Assembly (NCBI GenBank): GCA_015655435.1
Contig: JAATFC010000030.1
Span: forward strand, 1 to 36,600
Length of the DNA stretch: 36,600 nucleotides
Direction of reading: 5' to 3'
DNA from: Chitinophagales bacterium
GTDB lineage: Bacteria > Bacteroidota > Bacteroidia > Chitinophagales > Chitinophagaceae
A program made the translations under genes and the position numbers. The notes below the pieces were generated by a model. That model had not been told where the DNA came from. It saw only the letters and a program-made list of their open reading frames with translations, and ran no database searches. Positions 6,200 through 10,229 of the stretch are shown here, piece after piece (within the stretch, counting starts at the first letter, position 1; every line of letters begins with the position of its first letter).

Positions 6200-7171
6200 T
6201 TGACCAAATTAGAACGGCTGATACTCAATAGCCCTCCTATCAACTTCATTAGGGCTTGTTGCAGGAGAATTGTACTTCCTGGATTCGAAGGATTTAACCT
6301 TTACGAAGTGTATCGACAATTGTGGAACACTATCAAGAAAGATGGACTTTCGTTAAGGTCCGCATCCATGTCGTTTAATATCATATTGGCAATCCCGGCG
6401 ATATTTTTGTTTATCTGTTCGTTGCTGCCTTACTTGCCGATATCAAAAGATTTTTTCAGTGCCTTGGAATCATTGGTCTACGACATCACGCCCGACCACA
6501 ATACCAGAAGGATATTGAGCAGATTCCTCAACGATATTTTCATCAAGCAGAAAAACGGGTTGCTTTCTCTGGGTTTTGTATTGACCCTTTTTTACTCTTC
6601 CAACGCAGTGATGGGCATCATCCGAGCGATGGACAGAAGCGTCCCCAACCGTGCAAAAACAAACGTCGTCAGAAAGCGTTTTCGCGCTATCAGATTATTG
6701 TTGATTATAGTTGTATTGGTATTGGGCAACCTGATTATTTCCATGGGACAAGGTGCTATTTTTACCAAAATAATGGGATGGCTACACATCAAAGACCCGT
6801 CCATCAAGGCTTTGATTAAAAATATAAGATGGTTGGTTATCTTCTTGTTGTTCCTTTATTCCCTTGCTTTTTTGTACAAATACGGACCAACTATAAAAAA
6901 ACGAAACAAGCTATTGACACCCGGCGCACTTATAGGAAGTGTTCTGATTATAGTCACCACGACTATATTTTCCTATTGGGCGCAGAACATTTCGACGTAC
7001 AACAAGTTTTACGGCTCCATTGGCTCGGTGATGTTGATAATGCTATTGGTCTTTTACGGTTCGATGATGCTACTCATCGGATTTGAAATTGACATGAGTA
7101 TATTGAAACTCAAGATAGAAAGAGCCGAGAGAAAAAAGCAGGAAGACGCATTAGCGCAGACGTATTATTGA
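6200..7171 (+). CDS. YihY/BrkB-family inner membrane protein
   Basis: A 323-residue polytopic membrane protein of the YihY/BrkB family, with about six hydrophobic segments (for example around residues 62-80, 112-130, 172-190, 213-230, 248-265 and 276-300). Family motifs seen are GLSLRSASMSFNIILAIPAI near the N-terminus and YKYGPTIKKRNKLLTPGALIG in the second half. An in-frame stop (6197-6199) lies directly before the TTG at 6200, which is therefore the earliest possible start; no ATG occurs until well inside the conserved region, so TTG is chosen. The family was once called ribonuclease BN in error; its transport function is unsettled. It is probably cotranscribed with mltG. Confidence 0.88.
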   Translation: MTKLERLILNSPPINFIRACCRRIVLPGFEGFNLYEVYRQLWNTIKKDGLSLRSASMSFNIILAIPAIFLFICSLLPYLPISKDFFSALESLVYDITPDHNTRRILSRFLNDIFIKQKNGLLSLGFVLTLFYSSNAVMGIIRAMDRSVPNRAKTNVVRKRFRAIRLLLIIVVLVLGNLIISMGQGAIFTKIMGWLHIKDPSIKALIKNIRWLVIFLLFLYSLAFLYKYGPTIKKRNKLLTPGALIGSVLIIVTTTIFSYWAQNISTYNKFYGSIGSVMLIMLLVFYGSMMLLIGFEIDMSILKLKIERAERKKQEDALAQTYY

Positions 7172-7217: not shown

Positions 7218-8234
7218 ATGAATACAGCAAGCCATTACAAACTAGCACATTTCATCCCGTGGACCCGAAAAAATATTTATAAGATGCTTTTGTTAAGCGT
7301 CATTCCTACTGCATTATTTTATTTTCCGGGTTGGACTTGGATTGCCATTCCATGGGTTCCGGTTGCGTTGATAGGCACAGCTACTGCCTTTATATCAGGT
7401 TTTAAGAACACGCAAACCTACAATCGAACATGGGAAGCTAGGCAAATCTATGGAGCAATCATCAACAATAGCCGCAGCTTTGGGATTATGGTCAGGGACT
7501 TTATCCGAACGGATGATAATGCACAAGACAAGGATCTGCACAGAGAAATTATTTACCGCCACTTTGCATGGCTCACAGCCATGCGTTTTCAACTAAGAGA
7601 AACCAAAAGTTGGGAGAACGTCAAGACCAAAAGCTACAACCAGGAATATCTCAAATACTATAAAGTCCCTGAATGGGAAAGCAGCCTGGAAGAGGAACTA
7701 AAACCATTCTTATCCGATACAGAAAGACAATACATTCTTTCCTCCAAAAACAGGGCTACACAACTTATAGCACAGCAATCCTCGCGACTCAAAAACTTAA
7801 ATGAGCAATCCATCATCACAGACTATAACTATGTGGCACTCGAAAGCCAGTTGAAGGAATTCTACGACCAACAAGGGAAATGTGAACGTATTAAAAACTT
7901 TCCATACCCACGCCAGTTTTCAAGCATCAATCTATACTTTACCAATGCCTTATGTTTCTTGATTCCATTAGGATTCATCGGGGAACTGTCTAAACTTATG
8001 GTAAAGCAGGGAGATTGGTTTATTTGGCTTACTATTCCGCTAAGCATATTGGTAGGTTGGATTTTTCTGGTATTAGAGCAGATTGGAGAAAGTACGGAAA
8101 ATCCGTTCGAAGGAAGTGCCAACGATATTCCGATTACTCAAATAAGTCGTAATATTGAAATAGATTTAAGAGAAATTTTGGGCGAAAAAGATTTGCCTCC
8201 GGCTATACAACCGCAAAACAACATACTGATGTAG
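7218..8234 (+). CDS. Bestrophin-family anion channel
   Basis: A 338-residue protein of the bestrophin (formerly UPF0187) family. These proteins form pentameric channels; eukaryotic members pass chloride and bicarbonate, some bacterial ones pass cations. Recognisable features are two N-terminal hydrophobic segments (about 23-60), the family signature FKNTQTYNRTWEARQIYGAI (62-81) and NNSRSFG just after it, two later hydrophobic segments (about 240-295), and the C-terminal NPFEGSANDIPI typical of the family. Ion selectivity cannot be read from the sequence. It is followed after 54 bases by an LCIB-like carbonic anhydrase homologue on the same strand, which suggests bicarbonate as a possible substrate; see findings. 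Confidence 0.92.
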   Translation: MNTASHYKLAHFIPWTRKNIYKMLLLSVIPTALFYFPGWTWIAIPWVPVALIGTATAFISGFKNTQTYNRTWEARQIYGAIINNSRSFGIMVRDFIRTDDNAQDKDLHREIIYRHFAWLTAMRFQLRETKSWENVKTKSYNQEYLKYYKVPEWESSLEEELKPFLSDTERQYILSSKNRATQLIAQQSSRLKNLNEQSIITDYNYVALESQLKEFYDQQGKCERIKNFPYPRQFSSINLYFTNALCFLIPLGFIGELSKLMVKQGDWFIWLTIPLSILVGWIFLVLEQIGESTENPFEGSANDIPITQISRNIEIDLREILGEKDLPPAIQPQNNILM

Positions 8235-8288
8235 TACGTCAATAAATAAAGTGTCCAATAACCAAAACACTACACACCAAAAAAAATT

Positions 8289-9023
8289 ATGAGCATAGAA
8301 ATAGTAAGGAAATGGTATCCCAATGCACTTACCTCCATTGATACCGTCAATCGACTCCTAGACACAATCGAAAAATATTTAGGGCTAAAACCCAATCAAC
8401 TCATGCATGCAGATAGTATGTGTTGTGATGACGTGAACGCTATACAATATCCACCAAGGGCATTAGAAATGCTGGGACCATTTCACTTAGGAGGGCTGGA
8501 CGGATTCCCTTTTGCAGGTATTGCAGGCATGAACGCATTTGCACATCACGTTCCGGAAGACGGTGCGGTAATTATTTTCTATGCACCACATATTGGCATT
8601 ACCAAAGACGGAACAATTGGAGAGATACACCGATTCGGACAAAGCAATAATTCTGCGTGTTGCGGAGCAGCTAAAGGAGCGTTAGGAAAACTTATAAACA
8701 ACCAGATTATAGAGGGAGACATACGTTCGCTTGATTTTCAGATGAATACTATAGAACAGATTTTCCTTCATGAAAAACAAAGGATATTGAATGCAGCGAA
8801 TCCCATTTTCGAGGCTACTGAAGTCATGTACGAAGCTATCGACAAGCGCATCGAAGTATTAGTCAAGGAAACGCATTATCCGTGCAAATACGTACTGCTC
8901 GCTGGCGCAATATTTATCAATGGAGACAAGGACATGGGTTCTTTTTGTCAATATAAAAAGTTTGATTGTCTCAATCTCGAAACAGGCGACAGAAGAAGTC
9001 TGATGAAAGAATATTACGAGTAA
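8289..9023 (+). CDS. LCIB-like (theta-type) carbonic anhydrase homologue
   Basis: A 244-residue soluble protein without signal peptide. It shows the pattern of the LCIB/LCIC family (limiting-CO2-inducible proteins of algae and their prokaryotic relatives, a beta/theta-carbonic anhydrase-like fold). The motifs are C45-C46-D47-D48-V49-N50, then FHLGGLDGFPFAGIAGMNAF (65-84), AHHVPEDG (85-92), HIGIT (101-105) and SACCGAAKGAL (122-132). The likely zinc ligands by analogy are C45, H87 and C124 or C125, with D47 as the partner of the C-x-D pair. The expected activity is interconversion of CO2 and bicarbonate, although some LCIB relatives are inactive in vitro. It lies 54 bases behind a bestrophin gene and is followed by a terminator, so the two probably share a transcript. 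The family assignment is from memory of motifs; activity is inference. Confidence 0.75.
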   Translation: MSIEIVRKWYPNALTSIDTVNRLLDTIEKYLGLKPNQLMHADSMCCDDVNAIQYPPRALEMLGPFHLGGLDGFPFAGIAGMNAFAHHVPEDGAVIIFYAPHIGITKDGTIGEIHRFGQSNNSACCGAAKGALGKLINNQIIEGDIRSLDFQMNTIEQIFLHEKQRILNAANPIFEATEVMYEAIDKRIEVLVKETHYPCKYVLLAGAIFINGDKDMGSFCQYKKFDCLNLETGDRRSLMKEYYE

Positions 9024-9092: not shown

Positions 9093-9128
9093 CAAGAGCC
9101 AACATTTCCACGTTGGCTCTTGTCTTTT
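9093..9128 (+). terminator. Rho-independent terminator after the LCIB-like gene
   Basis: A perfect 11-bp stem, CAAGAGCCAAC (9093-9103) with GTTGGCTCTTG (9112-9122), has an 8-base loop and a short T-rich tail (TCTTTTCT). It lies 70 bases after the carbonic anhydrase-like gene. Confidence 0.75.
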
Positions 9129-9282
9129 CTGCCAATAATATCATAACACTATAGGGTTAAAATGTCATTCATCGACAGAAATAGTTGTTTGTCGTTGCAA
9201 CCAGATATTCGGAACGGAATGGCACATAAGTTGAAATTTTAGTTATCAGAAATATTTGATTAACAACTTAAAATTTTCAATT

Positions 9283-9819
9283 ATGAAAAAGTTAGTCCTT
9301 TCCTCAGCAATCGTCGCCATCAGCATAGCGAGTTACAAAAAAGCCGATGCTCAGTTGAGTCTTCAAATCAATATTGGTGGTGTATTTTCTGCAACAGTAA
9401 GCACCGCTCCTACTGTACCTGTGGTTGCCGCAAGTGACTACTATTACTACAATGATATCAATTGCTATTACGACGTTGCCAATAACCAATACATCTATCC
9501 CGAAAACGGTGCATGGTACTATTCAAGTGTTGCCCCGGTTATGTTCAGCAACTATGATTTTCGGAACAGTCGTCGTACCGTAATGGACAGAAAATCTTTT
9601 GAGGGTAGAAACATCCGCCCTACTGTATACAACCGTCAGGCTATTCCCAACAACAATGGCTATAACAACACTATGAATCAGAATCGTTTTGCTCAACAGA
9701 ATAGAGCCAAAGAACCACAAATGCAGCAAAGGAATAACCAGCAAGCACAACGTTCCATGGCCATGAACAACAATGGCGGAAACAGTCGGGGTATGGGTAG
9801 ACGCGGTGGATTACGATAA
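9283..9819 (+). CDS. Secreted Tyr/Asn-rich protein, function unknown
   Basis: A 178-residue exported protein: signal peptide MKKLVLSSAIVAISIASYKKADA, then a short hydrophobic beta-like stretch. A tyrosine-rich module of the form YYYYNDINCYYDVANNQYIY...GAWYY (about residues 50-82) follows, then a basic Asn/Gln-rich tail (NNNGYNNTMNQNRFAQQNR...) ending in a Gly/Arg stretch. I recognise the tyrosine module as a recurring one in small secreted Chitinophagaceae and Sphingobacteria proteins, but know no function. The ATG at 9283 is preferred to one 27 bases upstream because it begins the signal peptide. The next gene has a diverged copy of the same module, so the two look like a tandem pair. Confidence 0.75.
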   Translation: MKKLVLSSAIVAISIASYKKADAQLSLQINIGGVFSATVSTAPTVPVVAASDYYYYNDINCYYDVANNQYIYPENGAWYYSSVAPVMFSNYDFRNSRRTVMDRKSFEGRNIRPTVYNRQAIPNNNGYNNTMNQNRFAQQNRAKEPQMQQRNNQQAQRSMAMNNNGGNSRGMGRRGGLR

Positions 9820-9866
9820 TAATTATTTTCAAGAAACAATCTTTAATTTTTTAAAACATAAACATC

Positions 9867-10229
9867 ATGAAAACTAAATTTTTACTATTGACACTGGTCG
9901 CTAGCATCGGTATTGGCATGAGCAGTTTCGAACAGCAGAGAAACCCTCAGTCCCATCCTAAGGAACAACACAAAAACGTCCAAACCATTGAGGTACGTTA
10001 CTATTACTTACCCGAGTACAATGCTTATTTTGACACAAGGGACAAAGTCTATTACTATAAAAAGAAAAACAAATGGATAAAAACGAGCAAGCCAACCAGA
10101 ATCAATAAAAACATTGCTCAAGCAAAAAGAGAGCCCATACAAGACTTAAAAAGCAACGAATTGCCCTATACACACAATGCCCAACATGTCCAGACTTGGA
10201 AAGGTCAGCAGAACAGTGGTCGTCGATAA
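9867..10229 (+). CDS. Small secreted protein with Tyr-rich module, function unknown
   Basis: A 120-residue exported protein with signal peptide MKTKFLLLTLVASIGIGMSS followed by a hydrophilic, basic chain. The central module RYYYLPEYNAYFDTRDKVYYYKKKNKW (about residues 44-70) has the same layout as the module in the preceding gene: Tyr run, acidic/Asn turn, Y-x-D, Tyr run, Lys/Gly-x-Trp. The rest is rich in Lys, Gln and Asn and looks unstructured. It lies 47 bases after its neighbour and may be cotranscribed. A strong terminator follows. No function is known to me; a cell-envelope or matrix role is a guess. Confidence 0.7.
   Translation: MKTKFLLLTLVASIGIGMSSFEQQRNPQSHPKEQHKNVQTIEVRYYYLPEYNAYFDTRDKVYYYKKKNKWIKTSKPTRINKNIAQAKREPIQDLKSNELPYTHNAQHVQTWKGQQNSGRR

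Follow-up and report, generated by a model that had tools for sequence, protein, structure and literature searches.

A bestrophin gene paired with an LCIB-type carbonic anhydrase homologue in Bacteroidota, a candidate unit for CO2 and bicarbonate handling

Why does a member of the Bacteroidota encode a bestrophin-type membrane channel and, shortly behind it, a protein that resembles algal LCIB? In the available text of PMC6708349, an interaction is reported between algal LCIB/LCIC and the bestrophin-like proteins BST1 and BST3, and the algal model given there lets LCIB/C make HCO3- on the side where bestrophin takes HCO3- up, and lets bestrophins carry it across the thylakoid membrane. The role of LCIB itself is put tentatively in the same text, either as a directional converter of CO2 to HCO3- or as a tightly regulated carbonic anhydrase. 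The parallel with this algal partnership, drawn in a preliminary description of the locus, is thus supported, and its remark that no description of the bacterial pair was known to it agrees with the open-licence literature, where none was found by title and start of abstract. What, then, may such a pair do in a bacterium? The locus lies in the window, by which we mean the whole stretch of 36,600 nucleotides analysed here, taken from a contig of a Chitinophagales bacterium.

The two genes and their predicted products

The two open reading frames stand on a common strand with 54 nt between them, just as described before, and the features to which the following text refers are these:

7218..8234, + strand: Bestrophin_2 (PF25539) membrane channel gene, 338 aa (Pfam, PDB sequence match, fold)
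7377..7403, + strand: codons of the predicted pore-neck residues T54, F58 and F62 (alignment; F58 corresponds to KpBest I66)
8289..9023, + strand: gene for an LCIB_C_CA (PF18599) carbonic anhydrase homologue, 244 aa (Pfam, AlphaFold2, Foldseek)
8421..8423, + strand: codon of C45, candidate zinc ligand (invariant in 109/109 rows)
8427..8429, + strand: codon of D47, candidate catalytic aspartate (invariant in 109/109 rows)
8547..8549, + strand: codon of H87, candidate zinc ligand (offset match to PtLCIB4 H88; invariant in 109/109 rows)
8631..8633, + strand: codon of R115, candidate partner of D47 (invariant in 109/109 rows)
8661..8663, + strand: codon of C125, candidate zinc ligand (invariant in 109/109 rows)
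9093..9122, + strand: terminator-like hairpin of 11 pairs, followed by a T-rich tail (hairpin scan)

Genes for SecG, YceG and a BrkB-family protein precede the bestrophin gene on its strand (Pfam). As for the terminator that was said to close the pair, the hairpin does exist and has the longest stem among the 3 terminator-like sites in the scan, but the number of such sites is not significant, since shuffled sequences gave 3.5 on average.

The assignment of the second gene to the LCIB family stands on several grounds. All the motifs listed previously are found in its product: CCDDVN at residues 45-50, FHLGGLDGFPFAG at 65-77, AHHVPEDG at 85-92 and SACCGA at 122-127. Its LCIB_C_CA score is 220.3 bits against a cut-off of 25, covering profile positions 3-222 of 223, and among PDB chains it matches 6kfs (E 2.7e-27), 9w05, 9vzj and PtLCIB4 by sequence; in NCBIfam neither this protein nor the bestrophin has a match up to E 0.1. 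Its AlphaFold2 model has a mean pLDDT of 84.9, and Foldseek places it with solved structures of the family, PtLCIB4 5b5y at the top (E 1.8e-14) and TM of about 0.76-0.78 for PtLCIB4 and 6kfs, with residues 41-80, the active-site loop, modelled at low confidence (block means 49-74). Therefore, the putative zinc site is read from the sequence, and no geometry is taken from the model. Typical of LCIB_C_CA proteins are zinc ligands of two Cys and one His, together with an Asp and an Arg. We take C45, H87 and C125 to be the zinc ligands here, and D47 and R115 to be the Asp-Arg pair of beta carbonic anhydrases. These five residues are invariant in all 109 LCIB rows compared (84 near and 25 remote), and C124 is kept in 105 of them, so that the zinc site suspected from the motifs appears undisrupted and the candidate zinc and catalytic residues are intact. 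It is to be noted that this set, and the tree built on it, leave aside L001-L010, the 8 of 38 phylum-sample LCIBs lacking a locus, and the class-sample loci L159-L179. By alignment offset H87 equals H88 of PtLCIB4, the residue mutated in 5b5z, and C46 of the window aligns with PtLCIB4 S47, whose S47R mutant is 5b60; position 46 is Ser or Cys, never Arg, in all the 109 rows. A simple scan finds no strongly hydrophobic stretch in the LCIB protein, which should be cytoplasmic.

The first gene likewise encodes what it was thought to encode. The Bestrophin_2 score is 155.4 bits against a cut-off of 27, KpBest of Klebsiella is matched by sequence (E 3.9e-22), and the single-chain AlphaFold2 model (pLDDT 93.1) is matched by Foldseek to KpBest structures with TM of about 0.9 by target length. 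By alignment, T54, F58 and F62 of the predicted neck correspond to KpBest I62, I66 and F70, where KpBest numbering was matched by us to that of PMC8496536. According to the available text of that review, KpBest is a Na+ channel whose I66F change moves selectivity towards Cl-, HCO3- passes well through human bestrophins, and selectivity is not settled by neck residues alone. The middle Phe of the neck occurs in all 68 LCIB-linked bestrophin rows (66 different sequences, as there are two identical pairs). Among the unlinked paralogues, 20 of the 21 long forms have it, as do 3 of the remaining 19; these 40 paralogues (20 with wide flanks and 20 others) were chosen by hand among the matches listed and are not a random sample. 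Three bestrophins more than 1.1 kb away from an LCIB gene were counted separately, and their neck is S-I-F in 2 and T-F-F in 1. As the neck Phe is also the rule in unlinked long forms, it is a trait of the subfamily and gives no evidence of adaptation to LCIB. Thus, the linked pair uses a bestrophin of the predicted anion-type (long-form) subfamily, and this trait is not tied to linkage. A conserved C-terminal tail was considered as a possible binding site for LCIB and was given up: it is present in 55/68 linked and 12/21 unlinked long forms, and a narrower pattern of it in 44/68 and 7/21, respectively. By these alignments the tail is commoner with LCIB and not specific to linkage.

Occurrence and spread of the pair in Bacteroidota

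How often do the two genes stand together? When 84,980 species were scanned, each represented by one genome, 145 LCIB loci were confirmed, and the best 80 of them were analysed; their pairing rate is therefore biased to close relatives, and a class sample was drawn separately to correct this bias. Among these best 80 of 145, a bestrophin gene lies within 1.1 kb on the same strand in 66, upstream of LCIB in 62 and downstream, in swapped order, in 4 (L046, L070, L071 and L081). The gap has a median of 15 nt and is at most 100 nt for 61 of 69 ORF gaps at these loci, the 69 ORFs taking in two bestrophins broken into several ORFs (L038 and L042). The linked loci span 17 named genera, including a Limnohabitans bin (L085) that is maybe misbinned. 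In the other 14 of the 80 best loci, bestrophin is absent within 1.1 kb; in one of them (L086) it is found 4.9 kb upstream of LCIB. At L065:6622-6951, between a K+ channel gene and LCIB, there is a remnant of bestrophin from which a large internal part is deleted, which tells us that bestrophin can be lost while LCIB is retained.

Samples were also drawn by taxonomy. In the window's family (147 genomes), LCIB is present in 5 and Bestrophin_2 in 73, and LCIB follows a bestrophin gene in all 5 LCIB genomes, the window's own included, one of the 5 bestrophins being cut by a contig end. Among 392 genomes of the phylum, LCIB occurs in 38, mostly as remote members; any Bestrophin_2 match is found in 8 of these 38 genomes, and the two genes are adjacent in 3 (G000, G021 and G415). 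The class sample (396 genomes) has LCIB in 21, namely 12 of the window's type (at least 299 bits) and 9 remote ones (below 193 bits), and a bestrophin gene lies within the 1.5-kb flanks read in 9 of the 12, counting the window and also L169, whose bestrophin ORF is truncated, against 0 of the 9. This split indicates that linkage belongs to one LCIB clade. Pairing is not a general property of LCIB, and remote LCIBs of Bacteroidota go without it. The adjacency noticed at this one locus is therefore widespread in the phylum, but does not extend to the remote LCIBs.

Could the adjacency come from chance or from simple inheritance? Under a rough model of random placement the chance is about 0.001-0.003 per genome, to be compared with 66 of the 80 best loci and 9 of 12 window-type genomes of the class sample, and the adjacency is beyond chance. 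The numbers overstate its significance because loci share ancestry and sets overlap: the samples and the 80 loci have some genomes in common, such as class-sample L160, which is the genome of L091, and the LCIB of L091 is identical to that of L063. Inheritance of one single arrangement is argued against by the swapped order and by the several bestrophin lineages that are paired. On a tree of 111 bestrophins, which leaves out the duplicates L001, L003-L005 and L007-L010 and ORFs below 270 aa (e.g., L042 and L076), the LCIB-linked label takes 9 changes, at least 7 of them forced by well-supported branches. The LCIB tree of 109 rows has few strongly supported branches, and four states take 15 changes on it. 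Changes on these trees may be gains or losses, and unlinked bestrophin rows come mostly from genomes without LCIB. No gene fusion was found among the bestrophin and LCIB ORFs inspected; an apparent one at L168 is a 573-aa ORF that starts with an overlapping frame, the bestrophin being in another frame.

Identity values point to horizontal transfer. Ribosomal protein L1 is 90% identical to that of the window in a genome of the same genus, which has no LCIB, and 76-78% identical in the same family. In G415 and G579, L1 is only 66% and 67% identical while LCIB reaches 84% and 83%, respectively, and LCIB identity is 86-87% in G002 and G123 against 63% in G021 of the same family. G666 and G653 give no sign of transfer (LCIB 65-66%, L1 64-68%). 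Thus, the LCIB of the pair seems to move between lineages. Spread on plasmids or viruses was considered and given up, as a collection of plasmids contained no match and none was confirmed among viral contigs.

Two observations on the distribution may be added. Remote LCIBs (L094-L118) abound in one family (f24) that belongs to a different class of the phylum, and the genomes concerned mostly have no Bestrophin_2 match. The contig L085, binned as Limnohabitans of Pseudomonadota, also contains the pair, and on the trees it falls beside an Algoriphagus bin; this may be misbinning or transfer across phyla.

Neighbours of the pair and its possible function

Beyond what was described before, genes for cation-handling proteins recur beside the pair. 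By gene clustering, 32 of the best 80 of 145 loci have one and the same kind of membrane protein close to the pair. Its representative is an Ion_trans_2 (PF07885) K+ channel (43.8 bits, cut-off 22.5), and in 31 of the 80 loci (L011-L090) the gene precedes a bestrophin ORF, at 8 nt or less or overlapping in 28; the 32nd locus is L065, where it stands upstream of the remnant. Outside this set, L002 and L006 show the K+-channel-like filters TSIGYGD and TSIGFGD, and the gene at L006:2203-3638 lies directly 5' of bestrophin with an ATGA overlap. In 11 other loci of the 80, a Na+/H+ exchanger gene (PF00999) is found upstream of bestrophin, and L086 has one near LCIB. K+ channel and exchanger never occur together within 6 kb in the 80 loci (hypergeometric 0.001, ignoring relatedness). 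Other frequent neighbours are DoxX-like, SDR, AraC-type, aldehyde dehydrogenase and SnoaL-looking genes, where the DoxX-like representative is just below its Pfam cut-off and SnoaL is our own reading of a gene without Pfam label. None of these recurrent neighbours, K+ channel and exchanger included, was found by Pfam among the genes directly beside the window's pair; the window's genome has four Na+/H+ exchanger matches, all of them on other contigs.

Unlinked long-form bestrophins were also inspected for a recurrent partner of their own, and this idea was dropped: families among 40 genes flanking 20 such loci, which include near-relatives, recur at most twice (Na+/H+ exchanger, Tex, MFS, SDR and methyltransferase), and the 25 of 58 families listed include no carbonic anhydrase. 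The two exchanger genes of this set (L128 and L134), with LCIB not in view, are one convergent and one co-directional with bestrophin.

How can these findings be put together? The best explanation, which we consider slightly more probable than its opposite, is that the two genes are inherited together, move horizontally and form a CO2/bicarbonate unit that keeps pH and charge in balance. That LCIB and bestrophin act jointly on CO2 and HCO3- in some way is likely. LCIB would interconvert CO2 and HCO3- in the cytoplasm, the anion-type bestrophin would pass the HCO3- so made through the inner membrane, and in relatives carrying one the K+ channel or the Na+/H+ exchanger would balance charge or protons. 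In a cell whose interior is negative, a passive anion channel favours efflux, and the membrane potential opposes entry. With LCIB on the cytoplasmic side, much as the algal protein is assigned to the stromal side of its thylakoid, the most likely course would therefore be hydration of CO2 inside and HCO3- going out, and to a net outward flow as such we give a little less than an even chance. Respiratory CO2 would be disposed of in this way, being hydrated inside and released as HCO3- outside, and export of HCO3- would keep a proton inside the cell, which would act as a brake on alkalinisation and serve pH and charge homeostasis. A proton left inside fits the K+ and Na+/H+ partners and a device for pH and charge. 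A much bolder version, unlikely as a whole, is that a cytoplasmic LCIB docked on the anion-type bestrophin, with a K+ channel or Na+/H+ exchanger as partner, forms an undescribed mobile bacterial machine by which metabolic CO2 exits as a bicarbonate salt and in which the membrane potential drives directional hydration of CO2; the algal partnership would then be the photosynthetic version of a wider LCIB-bestrophin unit and no invention of the algae.

The preliminary description had thought, beside the handling of CO2 or pH, of a supply of bicarbonate to carboxylases. In that reading the pair would take bicarbonate in or keep it for fatty acid synthesis and anaplerosis, bestrophin letting HCO3- pass in either direction as needed and LCIB balancing CO2 and HCO3-. 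A carbonic anhydrase homologue beside an anion-type channel is in keeping with such a supply, and so is the algal parallel, which is a carbon-concentrating system. The window's genome, however, already has two Pro_CA carbonic anhydrase matches (best E 1.9e-46), its 82% complete sequence contains no match to RuBisCO_large, and passive entry of anions would have to work against the membrane potential. Nor does LCIB make up for a missing beta-carbonic anhydrase, an idea rejected for want of association: by hand tally in the phylum sample, Pro_CA is matched in 24/38 genomes with LCIB and in 229/354 without. Feeding of carboxylases becomes less likely by the Pro_CA matches and by LCIB not tracking their absence, and we now regard it as quite improbable.

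The recurrent K+ channel and Na+/H+ exchanger genes can also be read in another way, as parts of an operon for ion or osmotic stress in which bestrophin moves Cl-, other anions or cations, while LCIB senses CO2/HCO3- or, being catalytically silent, regulates the channel. The 2 of 20 unlinked long-form bestrophins that adjoin a Na+/H+ exchanger speak for this as well, and, to our knowledge, Chlamydomonas LCIB alone has no measurable activity. A silent protein, though, would hardly need candidate active-site residues that are invariant in every row, and Ser or Cys instead of Arg at position 46 also argues against silence, so that such an operon is, in our view, fairly unlikely. Very improbable is a mere bystander relationship, that is, both genes riding on one mobile stretch with DoxX-like, SDR and AraC-type genes and having no joint function. 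Horizontal spread and a neighbourhood common to many loci would suit it, as would L015, which retains this neighbourhood and LCIB without bestrophin; yet the pair persists where those neighbours are missing, as in the window, its order is swapped in 4 loci, and several bestrophin lineages have become paired. As to L015 itself, a locus of Terrimonas with LCIB beside AraC, SDR and DoxX-like genes, a recent loss of bestrophin is possible.

Comparison with known systems

The preferred reading can be set beside systems already known. Chlamydomonas LCIB/LCIC and BST1-3 belong to the same two protein families as the bacterial pair; the source cited for the contact of LCIB/LCIC with BST1 and BST3 is reportedly Mackinder 2017. 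In contrast to the algae, the bacterial members are a gene pair in a cell without Rubisco match, and hence without a Rubisco to be supplied as far as the 82% complete genome tells, and many bacterial relatives have a K+ channel or Na+/H+ exchanger in place of lumenal CAH3 and a pyrenoid. With the PtLCIB4 and LCIB/C group (PF18599; 5b5y, 6kfs, 5k5w and 5b5x), the window's LCIB shares sequence, predicted fold and candidate zinc residues; structural alignment gives it 23-25% identity with PtLCIB4 and 6kfs but 15-16% with LCIC and LCIB, it belongs to a Bacteroidota branch and, unlike that group, it is encoded beside a bestrophin. The window's bestrophin shares predicted fold and family with KpBest (PDB 4wd7), and differs in being longer (338 aa), in having the neck T-F-F instead of I-I-F and in its link to LCIB. 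In DAB (DabA PF10070 and DabB), too, a protein that resembles beta carbonic anhydrases is encoded along with a membrane protein that conducts ions. In the available text of PMC13144422, DAB complexes are found in chemolithoautotrophs and described as proton-driven, whereas bestrophin would be a passive anion channel; the membrane partners are unrelated, and DabA has 0 matches in the window's genome (G000, 82% complete).

The component families are known; what looks new is their conserved pairing and the cation-handling genes beside it. Algal LCIB is studied within a complex organelle, and a compact bacterial pair that occurs in many genera is a simpler setting in which to ask if LCIB and bestrophin form a unit. 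Such a pair could show in which direction HCO3- flows and whether the membrane potential drives the flow. It also suggests that many Bacteroidota have a device for handling CO2 and pH, of which no description was found by title and start of abstract in the open-licence literature.

Finally, the immediate surroundings of the window's pair have features of their own. The BrkB-family membrane protein gene (6200-7171) ends 46 nt 5' of bestrophin on the shared strand, and is not among the recurrent neighbours in the clustering of the 80 loci. Directly 3' of the pair, at 9256-10229, there are two small ORFs without Pfam match which, judged by eye, look secreted and are rich in Tyr and Asn.
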